Notes under the pieces: generated by a model | Database searches by the model: none | Seen by the model: the letters and a program-made list of their open reading frames with translations, nothing else | Told to the model about the DNA's origin: nothing | Translations under genes and position numbers: made by a program | From: Oceanobacillus timonensis | GTDB taxonomy: Bacteria > Bacillota > Bacilli > Bacillales > Amphibacillaceae | DNA: 64,000 nt | Assembly: GCF_900166635.1 (NCBI RefSeq) | Contig: NZ_LT800497.1 | Location: 248,001-312,000 of the forward strand | Reading direction: 5' to 3' | Shown here: positions 2,797-30,111 of the stretch, piece after piece | Layout: every line of letters begins with the position of its first letter | Position numbering within the stretch: the first letter of the stretch is position 1

Positions 2797-2933
2797 ACTG
2801 GTACCTTTAAATCAGTCCAGAGAGGCTGACAAGGACAGCGCGAACATAATGATTATCACTTGGGAAAAGTGTATTCAAGTGTGCATTATAAACAAAAGCT
2901 TCTTGTCAGGAATAGGACAAGGAGCTTTTTTTC
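2797..2933 (+). promoter_or_regulatory. PyrR-type attenuator leader upstream of codB
   Basis: The RNA contains a hairpin with stem TCAG/CTGA closing the loop TCCAGAGAGG (2812-2829), which matches the conserved PyrR-binding anti-antiterminator of Bacillus pyr leaders. A terminator follows at 2896-2933. Known PyrR biology is that UMP-bound PyrR stabilises this loop and lets the terminator form. A further 9-base complementarity (ACTGGTACC at 2797-2805 and GGTACCAGT at 2966-2974) spans the leader. Prediction: codBA is shut off when pyrimidine nucleotides are plentiful. Confidence 0.8.
2896..2933 (+). terminator. Attenuator terminator before codB
   Basis: AAGCTTCTTGTC pairs with GACAAGGAGCTT, one mismatch, and is followed by seven Ts. 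It lies upstream of codB, as expected for a regulated terminator. Confidence 0.8.
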
Positions 2934-3005
2934 TTGGTTCTACCTGACTTTTGCCGAAGTCTTTCGGTACCAGTTTCTTATATTTAACATATTGGAGGAA
3001 TTGGT

Positions 3006-4265
3006 ATGTCACAAACAGATAAAGAGTTTTCATTAGAAGCAGTACCTCAGACGCATCGGAATGGGTTTTGGAAGATTTTAGCGGTAATGCTTTCACTCAG
3101 TTTCTTCTCAGCAAGTATGATGTCGGGAGGAACATTAGGAACGGGGTTGACGTTTTCCCATTTCATCTGGGTGGTACTGGCTGGTAACCTGATTCTTGGC
3201 CTTTACACGGGGTCACTTGCTTATATAGCTTCCAAGACAGGGTTGTCGACCCATTTATTAGCACGTTACGCATTTGGGGAGAAGGGTTCTTATTTAACAT
3301 CCTTTTTACTCGCTTCTACACAAGTGTGCTGGTTTGGTGTGGGACTAGCGATGTTTGCTATTCCAGTTGCTACAGCGACAGGGTGGAATGTGTATCTGCT
3401 TATCGGTATTCTGGGGCTATTAATGACAGTTTCGGCGATTTTTGGAATGAAAACTTTAACTATATTAGGATTTGTGGCTGTACCGGCGATTGCTATCTTT
3501 GGTAGTTATTCCATGGTTGATTCAGCGCATGAAATTGGAGGAATGCAGGGGTTATTTGCTTATGAGCCGGCGCAGGCAATCAGTATAGGGTTGGCCTTAA
3601 CCATTTGCGTAGGTTCCTTTATCAGTGCAGGAACGCTTACTCCGGATTTTGCGCGCTTTGCTAAGTCAGCAAAATCAGCCGTGGCGGCAAATATTATTGC
3701 TTTTTTCCTGGGGAATTCATTAATGTTTTTATTCGGCGCAATCGGCGCGATGGCTTTTGGTATCGCGGATATTTCAGATGTGATGTTTTTACAGGGATTG
3801 ATGATTCCTGCTATTATAGTGTTAGGTTTAAACATTTGGACAACCAATGATAGTGCTTTATATGCTTCGGGGTTAGGATTTGCTAATATTACGAAGTTGC
3901 CTAAAAAGAAAATCGTTGTGTTCAATGGAATTATCGGGACAATTGCAGCAATGTGGCTATACAATAATTTTGTCGGATTCTTAAATGTGCTGGGATCGGC
4001 ATTACCATCCATCGGCGCGATTATATTAGCAGATTATTTTCTGGTCCGCCGCAGAAAATATGCGCCTTTTGAAACCATGACGTTTCAATCTGTCAATTGG
4101 GTGGCAATTGTGGCCTGGGCAGGAGGCGTGGCGATTGCTAACTTTGTGCCAGGTATCCCGCCGATAAATGCATTAATAGGAACATCTGTTATTTATGTGA
4201 TTGGAATGAAGTTGTTGCCGCAAGAAGAAACAGTCATCGCACCATTAGAAGAAAGGGTTAGGTAG
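3006..4265 (+). CDS. codB: Cytosine permease CodB (NCS1 family)
   Basis: A 419-aa integral membrane protein, the same length as E. coli CodB, with about 12 hydrophobic segments. It begins with an NCS1-type N-terminus (ending in RNGFWKILAVMLSLSFF) and includes FSASMMSGGTLGTGLTF in the first helices and the NIWTTNDSALYASGLG segment typical of cytosine permeases. It should import cytosine with protons or sodium. GGAGG lies 7 bases upstream of the ATG. The cytosine deaminase gene follows 3 bp downstream, so the pair forms an uptake-plus-deamination salvage unit. A PyrR-type attenuator precedes it. Confidence 0.92.
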   Translation: MSQTDKEFSLEAVPQTHRNGFWKILAVMLSLSFFSASMMSGGTLGTGLTFSHFIWVVLAGNLILGLYTGSLAYIASKTGLSTHLLARYAFGEKGSYLTSFLLASTQVCWFGVGLAMFAIPVATATGWNVYLLIGILGLLMTVSAIFGMKTLTILGFVAVPAIAIFGSYSMVDSAHEIGGMQGLFAYEPAQAISIGLALTICVGSFISAGTLTPDFARFAKSAKSAVAANIIAFFLGNSLMFLFGAIGAMAFGIADISDVMFLQGLMIPAIIVLGLNIWTTNDSALYASGLGFANITKLPKKKIVVFNGIIGTIAAMWLYNNFVGFLNVLGSALPSIGAIILADYFLVRRRKYAPFETMTFQSVNWVAIVAWAGGVAIANFVPGIPPINALIGTSVIYVIGMKLLPQEETVIAPLEERVR

Positions 4266-4268
4266 TCA

Positions 4269-5537
4269 ATGATTATTAAAAATGCAAAGCTGAGAGGCAA
4301 AGAAGGAATTTGGCATATTGTTATAGAGGATGGTAAATTTAGCGAGATAACAGAGGAATTACCGCAGTCTGAGGATAAAGAGATTGTCGATGTAAATGGT
4401 TCACTGGTTCTTCCGCCTTTTATTGAACCGCATATCCATTTAGATACGACGTTAACAGCGGGGGAGCCTGCTTGGAATCAGAGCGGAACATTATTTGAGG
4501 GCATTCAGCGCTGGTCTGAACGCAAAGAATCACTAACGATAGAAGATGTGAAAAAGCGATCAAAAACGGCATTGAAATGGCAAATTGCCCAGGGAATTCA
4601 GTATGTTCGTACACATGTGGACGTGACAGATCCAGAGCTTACTGCTTTAAAAGCCATGTTGGAAGTGAAGCAGGAAATGGCTCCTTATATAGATATCCAG
4701 CTGGTTGCTTTTCCGCAAGAGGGGATTCACTCCTATCCAAATGGAAAAGAGCTTTTGGAAGAAGCTTTGCAATTGGGAGCAGACGTGGTTGGCGGCATCC
4801 CGCATTTTGAATTTACGAGAGAATACGGTGTCGATTCGATGCGCGTGGCGTTTGATCTTGCGGAGAAATATGATAAATTAGTAGACATTCATTGTGATGA
4901 AATCGATGATGAACAATCCCGATTTGTAGAAGTGGTCGCAAAAGAGGCTTATGAGCGCGGTTGGGGAGAACGTACAACGGCAAGTCACACGACGGCGATG
5001 GGATCATATAACGATGCGTATACATCAAAACTCTTCCGTCTGCTGAAGATGTCTCAGATCAACTTTGTATCTAATCCGCTTGTCAATATTCATCTCCAAG
5101 GCCGTTTCGATACGTATCCAAAACGCCGTGGCTTAACGCGGGTAAAAGAAATACAAGAAGCAGGAATGAATATTTGCTTTGGCCATGATGATATTTTTGA
5201 TCCTTGGTATCCGCTGGGAACCGGTAATATGTTACAAGTATTGCATATGGGGATTCATGCGTCGCAATTAATGGGTTATGAGCAAATCGTCAATTCGATT
5301 GACCTGGTTACCAAAAACAGTGCTAAGACACTGCATATTGAAGAACAATATGGCATTGAAGCAGGGAAACCGGCGAATTTCATTGTTTTATCCGCAGATA
5401 ATGAATACGATGTGATTCGTAAGCAGGCTGTGGTGACACACTCCTTCAGAAATGGAGAAATGATCGCTCATACGAAGCCGAGTGAGGCGTCAATTTTGTT
5501 GAATGATACAGAAGAAAAAGTAACCTTTGATCGATAA
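4269..5537 (+). CDS. codA: Cytosine deaminase CodA
   Basis: A 422-aa amidohydrolase that converts cytosine to uracil and ammonia. Metal-binding residues are visible: HIHLD (His55, His57), HCDE (His208 with acidic E211), the [11 protein letters not shown] histidine, and [10 protein letters not shown] carrying the catalytic aspartate. Length and motif order match E. coli CodA (427 aa). It lies 3 bp after codB and shares its PyrR-type leader. Uracil made here would feed uracil phosphoribosyltransferase, which fits repression by PyrR. Confidence 0.93.
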
Positions 5538-5540
5538 AGT

Positions 5541-5582
5541 AAAAAAGCGCAACCTCCGGAATCCGGAAGGTGCGCTTTTTTA
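5541..5582. terminator. Terminator shared by codA and the convergent TauE/SafE gene
   Basis: A GC-rich inverted repeat (GCGCAACCTCCGG against CCGGAAGGTGCGC, with small bulges) flanked by A and T runs, so it can work in both directions. It overlaps the stop codon of the minus-strand gene. Confidence 0.8.
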
Positions 5583-6356
5583 ATGCTCCAACACCAAACT
5601 GCCAAGCATATAAACAGAAGAAATAATCGTAATAACCGCAATGAAAATTTTCAATTGTTCCACCGGCACCCTGTTAGCAATCCGGGACCCAGCTACAATC
5701 CCAATCGTTGTCCCAACTAAACTAAACAAAATAAAGCTCTGCATATTATCAATGCTTGCATATGAGAAATACCCAAAAATAGACGGCAGGGCAATAATAA
5801 CAGAGTTTAATAGCCCGACACCGACGGCAGTGCGGATATTGACACCTAAGCTTGCCAGCAATGGTACAACTAAAATCGGACCGCCTGCACCTGTTAAAGC
5901 GCAAATCACTGCGGTCAGCACACCCAGCAAGATAATCCATACGGGTTGTTTTAACATAAACGATTTACTATTTTCATCCTCACTGTCGGGTTCTGCATTG
6001 TTTTTCTTAAGTATAATCGAAAGTCCGGCAAACAGGACAAATAAGTAAAGCAGCAACTTCGCCAGGGTTTCGGAAATCAGTACGTTAACTTGCACACCGA
6101 GAAAGGCTCCGGGCAGACTGCCGATGCTTAAATAAAGGGCTAATTTGAAATCCATATATTTCAGTTTCCAGTACGAATAGGCACCGATAACACCTGCAAC
6201 CAGAAATGCCAGAAAGCTGAGTGCCAAGGAGTCATAGACAGGTAATCCCAGAAAGCCGACATAAATAATCGGCAGCAGGAAGCCGGAGACACCGGATAAT
6301 CCCACTAATATCCCAATAATTAAATTTGCTATAAATACAATAAAAAACGTTAACAT
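5580..6356 (-). CDS. TauE/SafE-family membrane exporter
   Basis: A 258-aa protein with about eight hydrophobic segments and the duplicated TauE/SafE motifs GLSGVSGFLLP (first half) and ALTGAGGPILVVPLL (second half). Family members move sulfite, sulfonates or organic anions; the substrate here cannot be read from sequence. The start at 6356 (MLTFFIVFIANL) is preferred because GAGG lies 8 bases upstream and the family begins directly with a membrane helix; an ATG 18 codons earlier has no binding site. It is the last gene after the riboswitch-led operon, separated by 110 bp and a hairpin. Confidence 0.82.
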   Translation of the reverse strand: MLTFFIVFIANLIIGILVGLSGVSGFLLPIIYVGFLGLPVYDSLALSFLAFLVAGVIGAYSYWKLKYMDFKLALYLSIGSLPGAFLGVQVNVLISETLAKLLLYLFVLFAGLSIILKKNNAEPDSEDENSKSFMLKQPVWIILLGVLTAVICALTGAGGPILVVPLLASLGVNIRTAVGVGLLNSVIIALPSIFGYFSYASIDNMQSFILFSLVGTTIGIVAGSRIANRVPVEQLKIFIAVITIISSVYMLGSLVLEH

Positions 6357-6415
6357 CGAAGCGACCTCAACTCTCTTAAAACTTGGAAGTTCATAAAACT
6401 GTTTAAACAAGGAGA

Positions 6416-6446
6416 AGAGCGCTTTAACATGGCGTTAAACCGCTCT
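6416..6446 (-). terminator. Hairpin between the amidohydrolase and TauE/SafE genes
   Basis: AGAGCG-GTTTAAC and GTTAAA-GCGCTCT form a stem of about 12 bp on the minus strand. No long T tract follows, so it may be a weak terminator or a transcript-stability hairpin. Confidence 0.35.
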
Positions 6447-6466
6447 GCCCGTTTTAAAAATGATAA

Positions 6467-7798
6467 TTAAATTTTAGCACGAATAATCAAGTCGTCCATA
6501 GCCTTTTTACTTTCATATTGAATGCGTTCTTCGTCCAGTGTCAGCACTTCTCTGTTTTTCATTAATATTTTTCCATTCACAATCACATCTGCCACATCCT
6601 TGCTATTCGCAGATTCAATTAATGTATTTGTCAGCTGATGTGTCGGTGCAATATGCGGCTGATCCATATCGATTAAAATCATATCCGCTTTTTTATCAAC
6701 CTCTATGGTGCCAAACTGATCATCCTGTAACATAGCTTTTGCACCGCCAAGTGTCGCCATATCCAAAATATTCTTGGACGGCATGACGACCGGATCAAAG
6801 ATAGGAACGCCCCAGAAAGCACGCATCAACGATTTGAAAACTTTCATTTGATCGAATAAGCTCAAACCGGAATGCGCGGCACCATCTGTCCCTAAACCGA
6901 TATCGACGCCTTTTTGCATCAGACCGGGAGATTTGGTAAACCCTTTTCCAGCATTACTGATCGGGCAATGAACAACCTTACTATTATATTGTTGGATAAG
7001 CTCCATTTCATGTTCGGATAGGAGAATACTGTGAGCACCTAAGAAATTTTCATCCAGTACGCCTAAGGATTCTAAAAGTTCATATGGACGCATTTGGAAA
7101 TTTTCCAGGCAGTAGCTGATTTCATTCGGATATTCATTCATATGTGTCTGCATGCCTGTTCCGTCTGCCTTTGCCAATTCATAAACTTTCTGAATCAATT
7201 CAGGTGTACATGTAATAAGCGAACGTAAGGAATACCAGACGTGGATACGTCCGTCCGCCTTGCCGTGATAGGTATCAAACAGATTTTTGCTTTTTTGAAT
7301 ATTATCTTCCATAGTTGTTTTCATGGATTCGGGGATAGCTGCACCAGTATCCATTGTAGAACAAGACAGTACACCGCGTAACCCGGAAGACGCTACCGCT
7401 TCCGCAACCTTATGCATATAACTCCCGCCTGCATCAATAAAACCGGTTGTTCCGGACTTCAACATTTCCAGGCAGCTTAATTCTGCGCTGATGGCTACAT
7501 CTTCTTCTCGCAGATTACTTTCAAATGGAACCATAATCCGTGTCCAGATCATCGGATATTCATCAGAAATTCGTCCGCGCAAAAGTTGTTGATTCGTATG
7601 GGTATGTGCATCAATAAGGCCGGGCATGACAAGTTTACCTTTTCCATCTAAAATTTCTTTCGCTTGATATATTTGCGTGGCGTTATCTTCTTCCATCGCT
7701 ATGATTTTTTGATCTTGGATAACGATATTTTGCCCATGTTTGATTTCAAACGCAGGGGTTAATATCGAACAATGCTTTATCAGTAAATCTGCATTCAT
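6467..7798 (-). CDS. Amidohydrolase of the TrzN/SsnA/guanine-deaminase group
   Basis: A 443-aa zinc-dependent deaminase-type amidohydrolase. Visible motifs are the first metal pair HTHTNQQLLRGR, QTHMNEYPNE, the AHSILL histidine and the catalytic aspartate in GLGTDGAAH. This set is shared by guanine, 8-oxoguanine, SAH/MTA and triazine deaminases. The start at 7798 is preferred because AAAGGAGA lies 7 bases upstream, unlike the upstream ATG at 7870. It is the third gene of an operon headed by a guanine riboswitch, so a purine or purine-like heterocycle is the most likely substrate (inference). The exact substrate is not determined. Confidence 0.82.
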   Translation of the reverse strand: MNADLLIKHCSILTPAFEIKHGQNIVIQDQKIIAMEEDNATQIYQAKEILDGKGKLVMPGLIDAHTHTNQQLLRGRISDEYPMIWTRIMVPFESNLREEDVAISAELSCLEMLKSGTTGFIDAGGSYMHKVAEAVASSGLRGVLSCSTMDTGAAIPESMKTTMEDNIQKSKNLFDTYHGKADGRIHVWYSLRSLITCTPELIQKVYELAKADGTGMQTHMNEYPNEISYCLENFQMRPYELLESLGVLDENFLGAHSILLSEHEMELIQQYNSKVVHCPISNAGKGFTKSPGLMQKGVDIGLGTDGAAHSGLSLFDQMKVFKSLMRAFWGVPIFDPVVMPSKNILDMATLGGAKAMLQDDQFGTIEVDKKADMILIDMDQPHIAPTHQLTNTLIESANSKDVADVIVNGKILMKNREVLTLDEERIQYESKKAMDDLIIRAKI

Positions 7799-7901
7799 TT
7801 TCATTCTCCTTTGAAACCACATTGAAAAAGACTGTGTGATCAGTCTTTTCAAAAGTTCGTTTATTTCCATTATAGTATCCAGGCAACTTGGCCTGTTCCG
7901 T

Positions 7902-8351
7902 TTAAAAAGCGTTTGTTACGGTTAAAAATGCTTGCGCAAAGACTGCTTGCAGCAGGAAGGTTCCAGTAAATACAAATATGGCGATAATCACCATTTTCCA
8001 ACTTTGGCTCATAAAGGCTTTAAAATCAAGTCCGATTCCTGCCAGCGTACCAACGATAGTAATTGGCGCTGTAAAGGAAATCAGTGAGGTCCAGTAAATA
8101 ATTGGTTCTGAAATCGGTGAAATCGGAATGGCTAATAGCAAACCGGTCAAGGCAACATACACTACTGCGGGTATTTTTAACGGAACCAGTTTCGCGATAA
8201 ATATACCGATAAATGCAATGCTGGATAAAATTAATACACCAGGGATTGATTCTAAAATCGAAACATCATTTTGAAAAAAGTTTGCAATAATCGTTGTCAG
8301 GACAGATGTAAATAAAAGCGAAATGGTCCAATCTTTCATGCTCATATTCAT
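7902..8351 (-). CDS. Small four-helix membrane protein, partner of the DUF3100 protein
   Basis: A 149-aa, very hydrophobic protein with four or five predicted membrane helices and no soluble domain. I do not recognise a characterised family. Its start overlaps the stop of the upstream DUF3100 gene by 4 bp (ATGA), which suggests translational coupling and a fixed ratio, as in two-subunit transporters. It lies 103 bp upstream of the amidohydrolase start. Best guess: second subunit of a purine-related transporter. Confidence 0.75.
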   Translation of the reverse strand: MNMSMKDWTISLLFTSVLTTIIANFFQNDVSILESIPGVLILSSIAFIGIFIAKLVPLKIPAVVYVALTGLLLAIPISPISEPIIYWTSLISFTAPITIVGTLAGIGLDFKAFMSQSWKMVIIAIFVFTGTFLLQAVFAQAFLTVTNAF

Positions 8352-9208
8352 TGTGAGACCCTGCTTTCTGCTGCTGGTGCATTTTTATATTTCCTTTGAC
8401 GTCTCATTCTCGGCTCTAACCAGGCATACAATTTATTGACTAGTGGCAACGAAATAAACAGCGTAAAGTAAATTCCGGTGATTGCCGATAACATATCACT
8501 CATTCCGGCCAGCATGACGATTTGGTCTGCGTAAGCTGGATAAATGGTTGCCAGGGTACTGGAAGCTGCTGCCATCATCACGCCGCTGCCGACACCGCTT
8601 GCCATGGCCAGCGCCAGTGGATGGAAAAAGTCAAAAGATGCAACAATACTTGCTAATAAACCGAGATACGTTGTTCCAATGAGAAAACCGATAATATATA
8701 TCGAAAGGGAGCCCCGTGCTTCCGCGGAGTTTGCTCCGTACTTACTGCAAATGAGTCCATAATCTTTATCACGGTTGGTAGAACTGGTTGCGCCGATGGC
8801 TTCTCTTTTTAACCCCAGAAATAAAGCGATGGGGAGCGCAAATAACATTGTTCCAATCGTTCCGAACTCCTGAAAAACGAGAGCCGGACCAACATTGACA
8901 AGTTCAGGAAGATTCGATCCTGCCATGACACCGATTTTTGCCATGAATGGAGAAATAGCAACCAAAACAAGCTGGGAAGCCTTTTTCGTTTCTTTCTTTT
9001 TAAGGAACCGGAGTACATCTTTTCCGAATATAATACTGATGATAATAGCAAATAGCATCGGATAAAGCACAATCAAAGCAGAACCGACACTGAATTCGAT
9101 GGTTCCAATAAGCTCGGCGATAAGAACAATTCCAAATGCAATCGTATATAGTCGCCAGTTTTCTTTCAAATGTCCCATAATCGTGGTTTTTTGCTGTGCT
9201 TTTTCCAT
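8348..9208 (-). CDS. DUF3100-family membrane protein, putative transporter subunit
   Basis: A 286-aa membrane protein with about eight hydrophobic segments. The region ALAMASGVGSGVMMAAASSTLA and a charged C-terminal tail match proteins annotated DUF3100. No function is established for this family as far as I know. AAGGAGG lies 10 bases upstream of the ATG. It is the first gene of the operon that starts with a guanine riboswitch and ends in a deaminase-type amidohydrolase, so import of a purine base is the simplest role (inference). Confidence 0.78.
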   Translation of the reverse strand: MEKAQQKTTIMGHLKENWRLYTIAFGIVLIAELIGTIEFSVGSALIVLYPMLFAIIISIIFGKDVLRFLKKKETKKASQLVLVAISPFMAKIGVMAGSNLPELVNVGPALVFQEFGTIGTMLFALPIALFLGLKREAIGATSSTNRDKDYGLICSKYGANSAEARGSLSIYIIGFLIGTTYLGLLASIVASFDFFHPLALAMASGVGSGVMMAAASSTLATIYPAYADQIVMLAGMSDMLSAITGIYFTLFISLPLVNKLYAWLEPRMRRQRKYKNAPAAESRVSQ

Positions 9209-9240
9209 GTTGTGTTTTTCCTCCTTAAATATCTTGCCTG

Positions 9241-9281
9241 AAAATAAAAAACGCTAGTATGTTTCTATTACTAGCGTTTTC
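9241..9281 (-). terminator. Terminator in the leader of the guanine-riboswitch operon
   Basis: AAAACGCTAGTA and TACTAGCGTTTT form a strong stem around a 9-nt loop, followed by a T-rich tract on the minus strand. It lies between the aptamer and the first gene, as expected for a riboswitch-controlled terminator. Confidence 0.8.
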
Positions 9282-9301
9282 GGCTTGATATATGAAAAAC
9301 A

Positions 9302-9337
9302 CAAAAAAGACCAACAGCATATACAGGTTAGGCTGGT
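9302..9337 (-). terminator. Possible second leader terminator
   Basis: ACCAGC pairs with GTTGGT (one G-U) and is followed by CTTTTTT on the minus strand. Its loop holds ACCTGTA, complementary to TACAGGT at about 9435-9441, so an upstream segment could compete with it. Weaker than the next hairpin downstream. Confidence 0.4.
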
Positions 9338-9492
9338 ACACGTGATATGACAGCTTTTCTTTACTTATCTAAGCAAAGGGTGCGTTAACGTACACTGAAA
9401 GAGAGATGAAAAGAATTCAATCTCATCACAGCAACATATACCTGTAAGTGGAAAAAGATAACATCTTAATCTGATTGATCGATTGTGATTTT

Positions 9493-9557
9493 CCATAGTC
9501 AAACCATTTACGGTAGTTTGGTAGAAACTTTTGGACCCTATTTCCAAATTTATATGG
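9493..9557 (-). ncRNA. Guanine-class purine riboswitch aptamer
   Basis: The minus strand carries all main elements of the purine aptamer. P1 is CCATA/TATGG; P2 is TTTGGA/TCCAAA; J2/3 is AGTTTCTACC; the P3 loop contains ACCGTAAA; and J3/1 is GACTATGG. The specificity base is C (GAC, not GAT as in adenine riboswitches), so guanine or hypoxanthine is predicted as ligand. Loop L2 reads AATAGGG, slightly different from the usual GATATGG but keeping the two Gs that pair with L3. In Bacillus these riboswitches turn genes off when guanine is abundant. It controls the DUF3100/amidohydrolase operon. Confidence 0.92.
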
Positions 9558-9569
9558 ATAATCAAAATG

Positions 9570-9603
9570 CGAACGTTTTTTGTTCGTTTCATTTAATTGT
9601 TCG
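9570..9603. promoter_or_regulatory. Possible PurR box pair
   Basis: CGAAC at 9570-9574 and GTTCG at 9599-9603 are inverted and 24 bp apart, close to the spacing of B. subtilis PurR PurBoxes, with A/T-rich flanks. An extra GTTCG lies at 9582-9586. The pair sits just downstream of the predicted start site. This would add PurR repression to riboswitch control. Confidence 0.45.
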
Positions 9604-9612
9604 TTTATTAGT

Positions 9613-9641
9613 AATTTACATCAATGTGATTAGAATGTCAA
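9613..9641 (-). promoter_or_regulatory. Sigma-A promoter of the guanine-riboswitch operon
   Basis: TTGACA (9641-9636) and TAAATT (9618-9613) are separated by 17 bp on the minus strand. Start site predicted near 9606, about 50 nt before the aptamer. Confidence 0.75.
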
Positions 9642-28029: not shown

Positions 28030-28467
28030 CAGTGTGCGCCCTGCATGGGTGAGAACTTGGTGGTGAAAGTCCACTACAGGCTTGGCAGTAGGAACTGTTA
28101 GCGAAAGACAAGGTGGCTATTGTGAGATAGTGGCTGAAGGAAGTCAGACGCAAACTCCTGGACTGACGAACAGAAATTAGATAGAAGGCTGGATTAGGTC
28201 GGATAAATCTGCACTACAAGATGAAGTCCAATACTGCCCGAAACCTATACAGTAAATCTAGCAGTTATATGGGAGGAAAGTTCTCACTCTTACCGGGGGA
28301 GGTCTTGTGAGGGTGATGAACAAGTTGAAGAATAACGAGTCAACACAACTAAGGTGGTGACATCTTGGTGAATCACAAGAAGTCAGCAGAGGTCGTAGTA
28401 GTGTGAAAAGGCCAAAACATGAAGGACCGAACAATCGTAATTTTGAAAAGTCTAGGAGGTGTGAAAG

Positions 28468-29856
28468 GTGCGAGAACTGCAGAAAACAGGAGAACCTGGC
28501 TATCGGCAGAGAGATAATGTGGAACATGAAGGGTATGTCGAAGTGCATAGTGCCTTTCATGGTGAAAAGAACAATCAAAATGGTGTATCCAATCTGTTTG
28601 AAAGAATCCTTTCAAGGGACAATCTAAATCAAGCTTACCTTCAAGTGGTCAGAAACAAGGGAGCAGCGGGAGTGGATGGTATGACATACGACCAGCTGCT
28701 TCCATACTTGAAGGAGCACAGGGAAGAACTATTAACGCAGTTGTATCTTGGGAAGTATAAACCTCAACCCGTAATGCGGGTTGACATTCCAAAACAAGAC
28801 GGCGGAATAAGAAAACTTGGAATCCCTACCGTTATTGACCGAATGCTTCAACAAGCAATAAACCAAGTGTTACAACCCATATTTGAACCGACGTTCTCCG
28901 ATAATAGTTTTGGGTTTCGTCCAAAACGTAGTGCACATCAAGCCATCATACGGGCAAAATCGCATTACGAACAAGGGTACAAACATGTGGTGGACTTGGA
29001 TATGAAAGCCTATTTCGATACGGTCAATCATGACAAACTGATGTATTTTGTGGAAAAACAGATCACAGATAAACGCGTACTACGCTTGATAAGACAATAT
29101 TTATTAAGTGGAATCATGATTGACGGCATCTTTCAAAAATCAGAGGAAGGAACGCCTCAAGGCGGGAACCTGTCTCCGTTACTCAGTAATATTTACTTAA
29201 ACGAGTTAGACCATTTACTGGAGAAACGAGGACACCGGTTCGTGCGTTACGCAGACGACTGTAACATTTATGTAAAAAGTAAAAGAGCAGGTCAACGCGT
29301 AATGAAAAGTATTACGAAATTTCTCGAGATGGATTTAAGTCTTACCGTGAATCGGGAGAAGAGTGCGGTTGGAAGCCCTCTGAAACGAAAGTTTCTAGGC
29401 TTCTGTCTCCTCGTCACAAAGAAAGGTGTTCAGATTCGTCCGCATTATAAAGCAAAAGAGACCGTTAAACAGAAACTCAGACGAATCACGAAACGTAATC
29501 GTGGACGAAGTATCGATAGGATTTTAAAAGAAATCCAGCAACTTATGACAGGGTGGATAAATTACTATGGCATAGGAGAAATGAAAGGATTTATGAAGAA
29601 TCTGAATGGGTGGTTGAAGCGAAGAATTAGACAATATATCTGGAAACAGTGGAAAAATCCACGTACGAAACGAAAGAATCTAATTCAGTTAGGTATCGAT
29701 AAACGGAAAGCTTATGAATGGTCGAATACAAGAAAAGGTTACTGGATTATATCAGGTAGCTATGTACTCCACCGTTCATTGACAGACAAAGAACTGGCAT
29801 CGAGAGGATATAAAGATATCGCTCTTCAATACCAGTTCGTACACTCAAACTATTGA
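28468..29856 (+). CDS. ltrA: Group II intron reverse transcriptase/maturase
   Basis: A 462-aa intron-encoded protein starting at GTG 28468, with AGGAGG 8 bases upstream. It has the reverse-transcriptase blocks (GAAGVDGMTYDQL, RKLGIPTVIDRMLQQAI, SFGFRPKRSAHQAI, DLDMKAYFDTVNHDKL, GTPQGGNLSPLLSNIYL and the active-site RYADDCNIYV), followed by the maturase domain X (GWINYYGIGEMKGF). No HNH endonuclease follows, in keeping with group IIC introns that insert at terminators. It appears complete and without frameshift. Confidence 0.95.
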   Translation: MRELQKTGEPGYRQRDNVEHEGYVEVHSAFHGEKNNQNGVSNLFERILSRDNLNQAYLQVVRNKGAAGVDGMTYDQLLPYLKEHREELLTQLYLGKYKPQPVMRVDIPKQDGGIRKLGIPTVIDRMLQQAINQVLQPIFEPTFSDNSFGFRPKRSAHQAIIRAKSHYEQGYKHVVDLDMKAYFDTVNHDKLMYFVEKQITDKRVLRLIRQYLLSGIMIDGIFQKSEEGTPQGGNLSPLLSNIYLNELDHLLEKRGHRFVRYADDCNIYVKSKRAGQRVMKSITKFLEMDLSLTVNREKSAVGSPLKRKFLGFCLLVTKKGVQIRPHYKAKETVKQKLRRITKRNRGRSIDRILKEIQQLMTGWINYYGIGEMKGFMKNLNGWLKRRIRQYIWKQWKNPRTKRKNLIQLGIDKRKAYEWSNTRKGYWIISGSYVLHRSLTDKELASRGYKDIALQYQFVHSNY

Positions 29857-29888
29857 ACCGCCGTATACGGAACCGTACGTACGGTGGT
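29857..29888 (+). ncRNA. Group II intron domain V
   Basis: ACCGCCGTA pairs with TACGGTGGT, with an inner TACG-GAAC-CGTA hairpin and a two-base bulge: the shape of the catalytic domain V. It starts right after the maturase stop codon. Confidence 0.8.
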
Positions 29889-30111
29889 GTGAGAGGGGCG
29901 AGAAGTTACTTAGCTTTTCCCTCTACTCGATGTAGAGATGTGAATGTTTGTATTCTTGGTTCTGAAGACCTTGAGGTAGGCAGTCTCTCTCTAATCAATA
30001 GCATGATTTAAGAAGAATTCCGTTAATAAGTGTTTTGAAAATAAATATAAGTAACATAAAATCAGAGATAAACAGTCATTATTAACGAATATTATAACCT
30101 TTAAAAGGTAG

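Follow-up and report, generated by a model that had tools for sequence, protein, structure and literature searches.

A guanine-type riboswitch and a predicted PurR site precede a DUF3100 membrane pair and a deaminase-like amidohydrolase in a candidate purine-scavenging operon of Oceanobacillus timonensis

We analysed a stretch of 64,000 nucleotides (the window) from the 4.49-Mb genome of Oceanobacillus timonensis (contig NZ_LT800497.1, positions 248,001 to 312,000), which carries on its reverse strand a purine riboswitch followed by four genes. The first encodes a DUF3100 membrane protein of 286 amino acids (8348..9208), which scores 295.9 bits against PF11299 (cut-off 27) and whose nearest named records, at 90-92%, are from Oceanobacillus. 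Its stop is overlapped by 4 nt by the open reading frame (ORF) of a small membrane partner of 149 amino acids (7902..8351) that matches no Pfam family. There follow a deaminase-like amidohydrolase of 443 amino acids (6467..7798; PF01979, 192.8 bits) and a TauE/SafE permease (5580..6410; PF01925, 118.7 bits against a cut-off of 32.6). The longest ORF of the amidohydrolase runs from 7870 to the stop at 6467, and its probable start is the ATG at 7798 rather than 7870; the TauE/SafE gene probably starts at the ATG at 6356. An initial annotation, made from the sequence alone, had described the riboswitch, the DUF3100 gene, the partner and the amidohydrolase, all of which our analysis places at this locus; to these we add an intrinsic terminator ahead of DUF3100 and the TauE/SafE gene, which is constantly present as the fourth of the operon. 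Between the amidohydrolase and TauE genes, a hairpin-like repeat without a clear U tract is visible by eye (6356-6467, reverse strand), possibly an RNA-processing or attenuation site.

The arrangement recurs in relatives. A protein search of contigs yielded 17 loci, 15 of them with the riboswitch, the two without it being from Siminovitchia (L024) and Clostridium (L025). Further stretches added three unique riboswitch loci (L131-L133), giving 19 with the window; L127, L128 and L134 were judged to be copies of L020, L021 and L019 and were not recounted. The 19 loci span Oceanobacillus, Sporosarcina, Lysinibacillus, Neobacillus and others, several of them coming from closely related species, and all 18 switch-bearing relatives have the same gene order of DUF3100, partner, amidohydrolase and TauE. 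The association of the two membrane proteins is wider still: of 80 loci examined, 79 have a partner homologue with DUF3100, and only a 165-aa fragment is without one. The two-gene membrane unit proposed in the initial annotation is a fixed one.

The aptamer is a full-length match to RF00167 at 9577-9476 on the reverse strand (81.8 bits, where the gathering score is 37). The guanine-class ligand contacts U22, U51 and C74, named as such in PMC9295807, are present in all 19 aligned loci (xpt numbering, here and for position 48), and the core as a whole is strongly conserved across them. The J2-3 and J3-1 insertions that the same paper describes for xanthine-II and guanine-II riboswitches occur neither in the Rfam alignment of the window nor in the 19-locus aptamer alignment. 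Judged by these sequence features, the window aptamer belongs to the guanine-I class, in keeping with the guanine-type element initially annotated, and variants with altered ligands (xanthine-II, guanine-II and 2'-deoxyguanosine) are disfavoured because the core and the junction lengths match guanine-I. Set against the 8-oxoguanine riboswitch, which that paper presents as a guanine-I-like variant, the window core is again of the guanine type. J2-3 comes in two forms, GUCUCUACC with C at position 48 in 11 of the 19 aptamers (L013-L021, L132 and L133) and GUUUCUACC with U at this position in eight (the window, the other Oceanobacillus loci, L022 and L131); U48 is not discussed in the accessible text of PMC9295807.

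This is one of six purine riboswitches in the genome, the other five preceding xpt-pbuX, guaA, a pbuG-like gene, a second permease gene and purE (names given by protein appearance). With the known guanine-I riboswitches of xpt-pbuX, pbuG, guaA and purE (RF00167), the window element shares its aptamer architecture and core, a terminator ahead of the gene and, as at the organism's own purE, PurR boxes beside the switch; what sets it apart is the set of downstream genes, which comprises TauE, an amidohydrolase that fits no assigned family and a transporter-like pair that is uncharacterised. A purine riboswitch before transporter and amidohydrolase genes has a counterpart in the NMT1-motif (xanthine-I) operons, in which, according to PMC7373994, the RNA precedes transporter genes and PRK12393-type amidohydrolases, but both the RNA class and the transporters are different there.

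The two PurR boxes, ATAAACGAACAAT (9608-9596) and the inverted AACGTTCGCATTT (9577-9565), both on the reverse strand, match 12 and 11 of 13 positions, respectively, of a PurBox consensus. The 18 nt between these 13-mers correspond to 16 bp between 14-bp boxes, as in Bacillus subtilis; PurR boxes are described as inverted, 14 bp long, with a central CGAA/TTCG and a spacer of 16-17 bp (PMC8789054). When spacings of 14-19 nt were allowed, the best-matching pair was spaced 18 or 19 nt in all 19 loci, with a shuffle fraction of at most 0.05 in 16 of them (the exceptions being L013 at 0.65, L021 at 0.10 and L022 at 0.06). Out of a maximum of 26, pair scores range from 18 to 24 over the 19 loci, with 23 for the window and 24 for the genome's own purE leader, which served as a positive control (shuffle fraction 0.00). 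The leader of the second permease gene scores 21 (0.01), and those of xpt (18, 0.65), guaA (17, 0.84) and the pbuG-like gene (19, 0.19) remain at chance within the 110 nt scanned. A strict pattern, built after the window and purE sites had been viewed, matches only the window site and the purE operon in the entire genome, with no match for the reversed-pattern control. From its sequence and geometry, we predict that the window pair is a PurR site of the PurR regulon type, which gives a firmer shape to what had been annotated as a possible PurR box pair.

At L024, L126 and L130 the cassette occurs without the switch, and each of these three loci carries a GntR/UTRA regulator; in L130 the TauE gene is a different one, and L129, the stretch of which ends just past the amidohydrolase, was left uncounted. 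PurBox scores are at chance in L024 and L130; in L126 and in a further switchless locus, L135, the score beats the shuffles but lacks the CGAA core, and these two were not counted as sites. Conversely, no GntR homologue was found in the examined stretches of the 18 switch-bearing relatives (that of L012 ends just past TauE). The presence of GntR where switch and PurR boxes are missing looks like an exchange of regulators. In a DUF3100 tree of 77 rows, from which the short or split rows L024, L091 and L092 were excluded, the 19 riboswitch rows and two GntR rows form a single branch (100/99), with L126 outermost and L130 among the riboswitch rows; long branches meet at the join of this group, leaving its nearest relatives unsure. 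The DUF3100 gene of the Siminovitchia locus is split into two ORFs (L024:4986-5866), and Siminovitchia fordii has an entry for a DUF3100 of intact length (P0051, 293 aa).

Upstream of the boxes lies a promoter-like site (TTGACA-17-TAAATT; 9641-9613, reverse strand), which with 10 of 12 matches is one of the three top scorers among the 11 sites found. Shuffled sequences give 10.2 sites, that is, no enrichment in the region; the scan alone proves nothing, and it is the position of this site that supports a promoter. Ahead of DUF3100, an intrinsic terminator (AAAACGCTAGT...ACTAGCGTTTT; 9280-9246, reverse strand; -13.1 kcal/mol) was not listed by a generic terminator scan because its loop exceeds the length that the scan allows. 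The 3' side of the aptamer (9471..9505, comprising the P3 3' strand, J3-1, the P1 3' strand and further nucleotides) is predicted to pair with a segment directly before this terminator (9282..9317), both on the reverse strand, forming a duplex of -29.0 kcal/mol (z -5.6 against shuffles). A first terminator rule mislocated terminators, and six of the 19 loci (L013, L016, L018, L019, L020 and L021) had z values from -1.3 to +0.8 under it. Under a second, stricter rule a terminator is located in 17 of the 19 loci (none in L020 and L021), and in these the antiterminator pairing has z values of -3.0 to -6.7 against single-letter shuffles. When strands are exchanged among the loci, pairing is nearly as strong as within a locus (mean -22.1 against -25.3) because the segments are conserved, and the antiterminator signal is one of conservation more than of covariation.

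In Bacillus/Sporosarcina-type leaders, the pairing segment has AAACU in common with the base of the terminator stem, and ligand binding should therefore favour termination (OFF). In the window, the segment stops just before the terminator and overlaps an earlier hairpin and U tract instead. Energy models of partial window leaders give the antiterminator fold the same energy as the free fold; in the complete leader, the free fold keeps both aptamer and terminator and is 3.6 kcal/mol better than the antiterminator fold (energies obtained with the aptamer enforced are too pessimistic, the forced P1 pairs being badly placed). Because the window pairing abuts the terminator and the free fold retains the aptamer, the OFF direction that we infer for the switch is drawn mainly from the leaders of relatives.

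Starting from what can be read in the sequences themselves (the aptamer, the boxes, the conserved operon, the fixed pair and the replaced regulator), we propose, with a probability of roughly 0.58, that this is a purine-starvation operon repressed by guanine and PurR that scavenges a purine base. When purines are short, PurR would be off the promoter and the guanine aptamer empty; the 3' part of the empty aptamer would pair with the segment before the terminator, allowing transcription to continue, whereas guanine would close the aptamer and favour termination. Expression at low guanine and low purines would argue for supply rather than disposal. DUF3100 and its partner would form a two-subunit secondary transporter, possibly of the elevator type, for a purine base that the usual permeases handle poorly, and the cytosolic amidohydrolase would hydrolyse this base, probably at C2 of a 6-oxopurine. 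The product would be a salvageable base such as xanthine, convertible to GMP by Xpt and GuaA of the same regulon. Transport, a base as its cargo and C2 chemistry are the parts that we infer; which base it is would be a guess, as would the role of TauE/SafE, which probably moves substrate, product or leaving group.

TauE/SafE proteins are named for export, and this name suits a different scheme, in which the membrane proteins would act as exporters and rid the cell of purine analogues or products of deamination that are toxic. Some partner homologues also weakly resemble LysO and Asp-Al_Ex, below cut-off, but the window's own partner does not. We regard export as improbable, as genes known to be under guanine riboswitches and PurR serve mostly purine synthesis and uptake, both in Clostridioides difficile for the riboswitch (PMC11477304) and in B. 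subtilis for PurR (PMC8789054). TauE genes have also been linked to the orphan ykkC subtype 2d riboswitch (PMC7266159).

The purine link does not hold for DUF3100 at large. Of the 398 genomes sampled in the class, 45 encode a DUF3100 protein. A riboswitch search with model R1 was positive for 15 of 57 loci and then for six of 28 (three of the six being copies), the amidohydrolase adjoining each time, and detected no purine switch at the other DUF3100 loci searched, namely 42 of the 57, 17 Clostridia loci, L126 and L130. M20 amidohydrolases are neighbours in 17 of 41 loci, at a distance of three genes in one case, and in all but one of the 17 Clostridia loci. In L056, L057, L058, L061, L064, L071 and L091, the DUF3100 pair has beside it an aldehyde dehydrogenase and a hydroxyisobutyrate-type dehydrogenase, an assignment backed by both Pfam and NCBIfam in one of these seven loci; other DUF3100 loci have neither M20 nor dehydrogenase neighbours. 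Because other branches have M20 enzymes or dehydrogenases and no switch, the DUF3100 family is a transporter-like pair used in several settings, with a purine assignment for one clade only, and the dehydrogenase-linked pairs probably handle another, non-purine substrate. A purine role for all DUF3100 proteins is rejected, the switch being found only beside the amidohydrolase and in one clade; the co-occurrence with purine riboswitches expected in the initial annotation held for this clade (15 of 17 loci, 19 in all) and failed family-wide. In several dehydrogenase-type loci, a gene clusters with the PucR-type helix-turn-helix protein of L056. The genome of the window itself has a second DUF3100-partner pair without a riboswitch (L002/L081, G000:C3:3.38 Mb), upstream of which is a 314-aa gene of regulator appearance.

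The AlphaFold2 model of DUF3100 (pLDDT 78) is compatible with a CitS-like carrier, CitS being the nearest fold. Unlike CitS and the other elevator symporters of the 2-hydroxycarboxylate transporter (2-HCT) family, however, with which it has only 10-13% identity, DUF3100 consists of a shorter chain and has its partner as a protein of its own, and neither Pfam nor PDB profile searches gave a 2-HCT match at E<=10. The partner model (pLDDT 60) has no usable fold match. Profile comparison of A3 and A4, bearing on a relation between partner and DUF3100 or on LysO homology, returned a probability of 0.4%, and profiles of wider sets returned 27% for partner against DUF3100, 5.6% for DUF3100 against LysO and 0.2% for partner against LysO; with comparisons this weak, we claim neither an internal-repeat relation between the two proteins nor LysO homology. 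The open literature that was searched makes no mention of DUF3100.

Evidence for purines that is independent of the switch comes from the amidohydrolase. Where it occurs without DUF3100, a nucleoside hydrolase adjoins it in all four loci fetched (L135, L136, L139 and L140; the call is based on 79% identity in L139 and on Pfam in the other three), together with a major facilitator superfamily carrier and an IclR-type regulator in three and with energy-coupling factor transporter parts and a ribokinase in one. Thus, where the transporter differs, a base-freeing step appears. In L090, which belongs to another lineage, the gene directly after the DUF3100 pair has 38% identity to that nucleoside hydrolase. 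Both a DUF3100 (52%) and an amidohydrolase (60%) are encoded by the purine-fermenting Gottschalkia purinilytica; the longest contigs are both 72,535 in size, and judging by this equality the two genes are apparently on one contig. The accessible part of PMC5737214, a paper on Gottschalkia, has nothing on these genes. Two weaker amidohydrolase matches have 31-33% identity. The best-120 DUF3100 and best-120 amidohydrolase matches have 30 contig sizes in common, four of which are under 6 kb, where chance coincidence is possible.

The nucleoside hydrolase, beside the enzyme in four of four loci and beside one DUF3100 pair, speaks, along with the control by PurR and guanine, against the idea that the pair carries something other than a base. 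Under that scheme, the cargo would be an organic acid or an acylated or amide conjugate, and the switch would have been captured because what the enzyme makes adds indirectly to the supply of purines; the M20 or dehydrogenase neighbours in other lineages and the CitS fold would accord with it. We consider it unlikely and prefer a purine base as the cargo.

The amidohydrolase has relatives of solved structure among atrazine chlorohydrolase, methylthioadenosine/S-adenosylhomocysteine (MTA/SAH) deaminases, 8-oxoguanine deaminase and guanine deaminases. In its superfamily, metal and protons are handled by a characteristic set of residues; H65, H67, H219, E222, H256 and D305 are present in 120 of 120 homologues, as are Gln70, Glu93 and Arg192, and the enzyme accordingly appears to keep the residue set of an active superfamily member. 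Gln70 and Arg192 have aligned counterparts in E. coli GuaD and none in SsnA; the Gln and Arg of GuaD at these positions presumably contact guanine. None of the 25 NCBIfam families shown, out of 64 matched, has its curated cut-off reached, and this includes guanine deaminase TIGR02967 (162.9 bits against 375.4), 8-oxoguanine deaminase PRK08203 (213 against 532), 5'-deoxyadenosine deaminase PRK07228 (312.7 against 522) and MTA/SAH deaminase PRK15493 (192.7 against 779). Some sources label members of the subfamily as 'cytosine deaminase' and others as '5-methylthioadenosine/S-adenosylhomocysteine deaminase'. The four members linked to nucleoside hydrolase carry other residues at two neighbouring positions (Ser193 to Gln and Tyr223 to His), and two substrate variants are therefore possible among the homologues. 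At E<=1e-110 the enzyme is rare, found in 2 of 299, 2 of 299, 7 of 193, 6 of 180 and 2 of 26 genomes, the two samples of 299 being apparently largely the same genomes and the sample of 26 having been searched with another query. The deaminase-type amidohydrolase of the initial annotation thus stands as a deaminase-like enzyme with purine-type neighbours of its own; guanine or an oxidised guanine, the substrates suggested there, are possible, with scores below both deaminase cut-offs.

Each of these substrates defines an explanation of its own. In an ordinary guanine system, the pair would carry guanine or hypoxanthine and the enzyme would be a diverged guanine deaminase yielding xanthine. The enzyme does share with GuaD the HxH...H-E...H...D set and the aligned Gln/Arg pair, and both proteins occur in a purine-fermenting organism, but it is only 25% identical to E. 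coli GuaD and falls short of the TIGR02967 cut-off, control by guanine has the wrong sense for a catabolic deaminase, and purine permease genes are apparently already present in the genome; we find this doubtful. Those same permeases leave room for an unusual base, and the cell may instead scavenge or detoxify a guanine in oxidised or modified form (8-oxoguanine, N-methylated guanines or isoguanine). Here the structural relatives include 8-oxoguanine deaminase, of the same superfamily, with 213 bits to PRK08203; yet that cut-off too is missed, the aptamer core is of the ordinary guanine type, and repression by guanine is not expected of detoxification, so that we rate a modified guanine somewhat higher than ordinary guanine and still on the unlikely side.

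The preferred reading of a base-scavenging starvation operon can be given a more specific form, in which DUF3100 and its partner are the halves of a split elevator-type family that imports a guanine-like base beyond the reach of NCS1 and NCS2 and the amidohydrolase belongs to a new deaminase subfamily that makes this base salvageable; we put this forward tentatively, as more daring than the general reading. If true, it would be the first function for DUF3100. The riboswitch and PurR boxes give one DUF3100 clade a testable ligand class, the fixed partner predicts that joint expression of both genes is needed, and by the same logic a purine role is assigned to a subfamily of amidohydrolases. As a candidate for a new system of purine scavenging in Bacillus-type bacteria, the operon is a strong one; the accessible portions of the open literature on guanine riboswitches with an amidohydrolase, transporter, deaminase or unknown function contained no description of it.

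Two other features of the window lie outside the operon. At 2800-5537 on the forward strand, a PyrR-binding element (RF00515, 60.8 bits) precedes a codB-like permease gene and a cytosine deaminase gene, the product of which scores 768.6 bits against PRK09230 (cut-off 483). These pyrimidine genes are convergent with the purine operon, and a cytosine deaminase is also present in three relatives (L009-L011). Further along the forward strand, at 28116-29931, are pieces of a group II intron (RF02001, RF01998 and RF00029).

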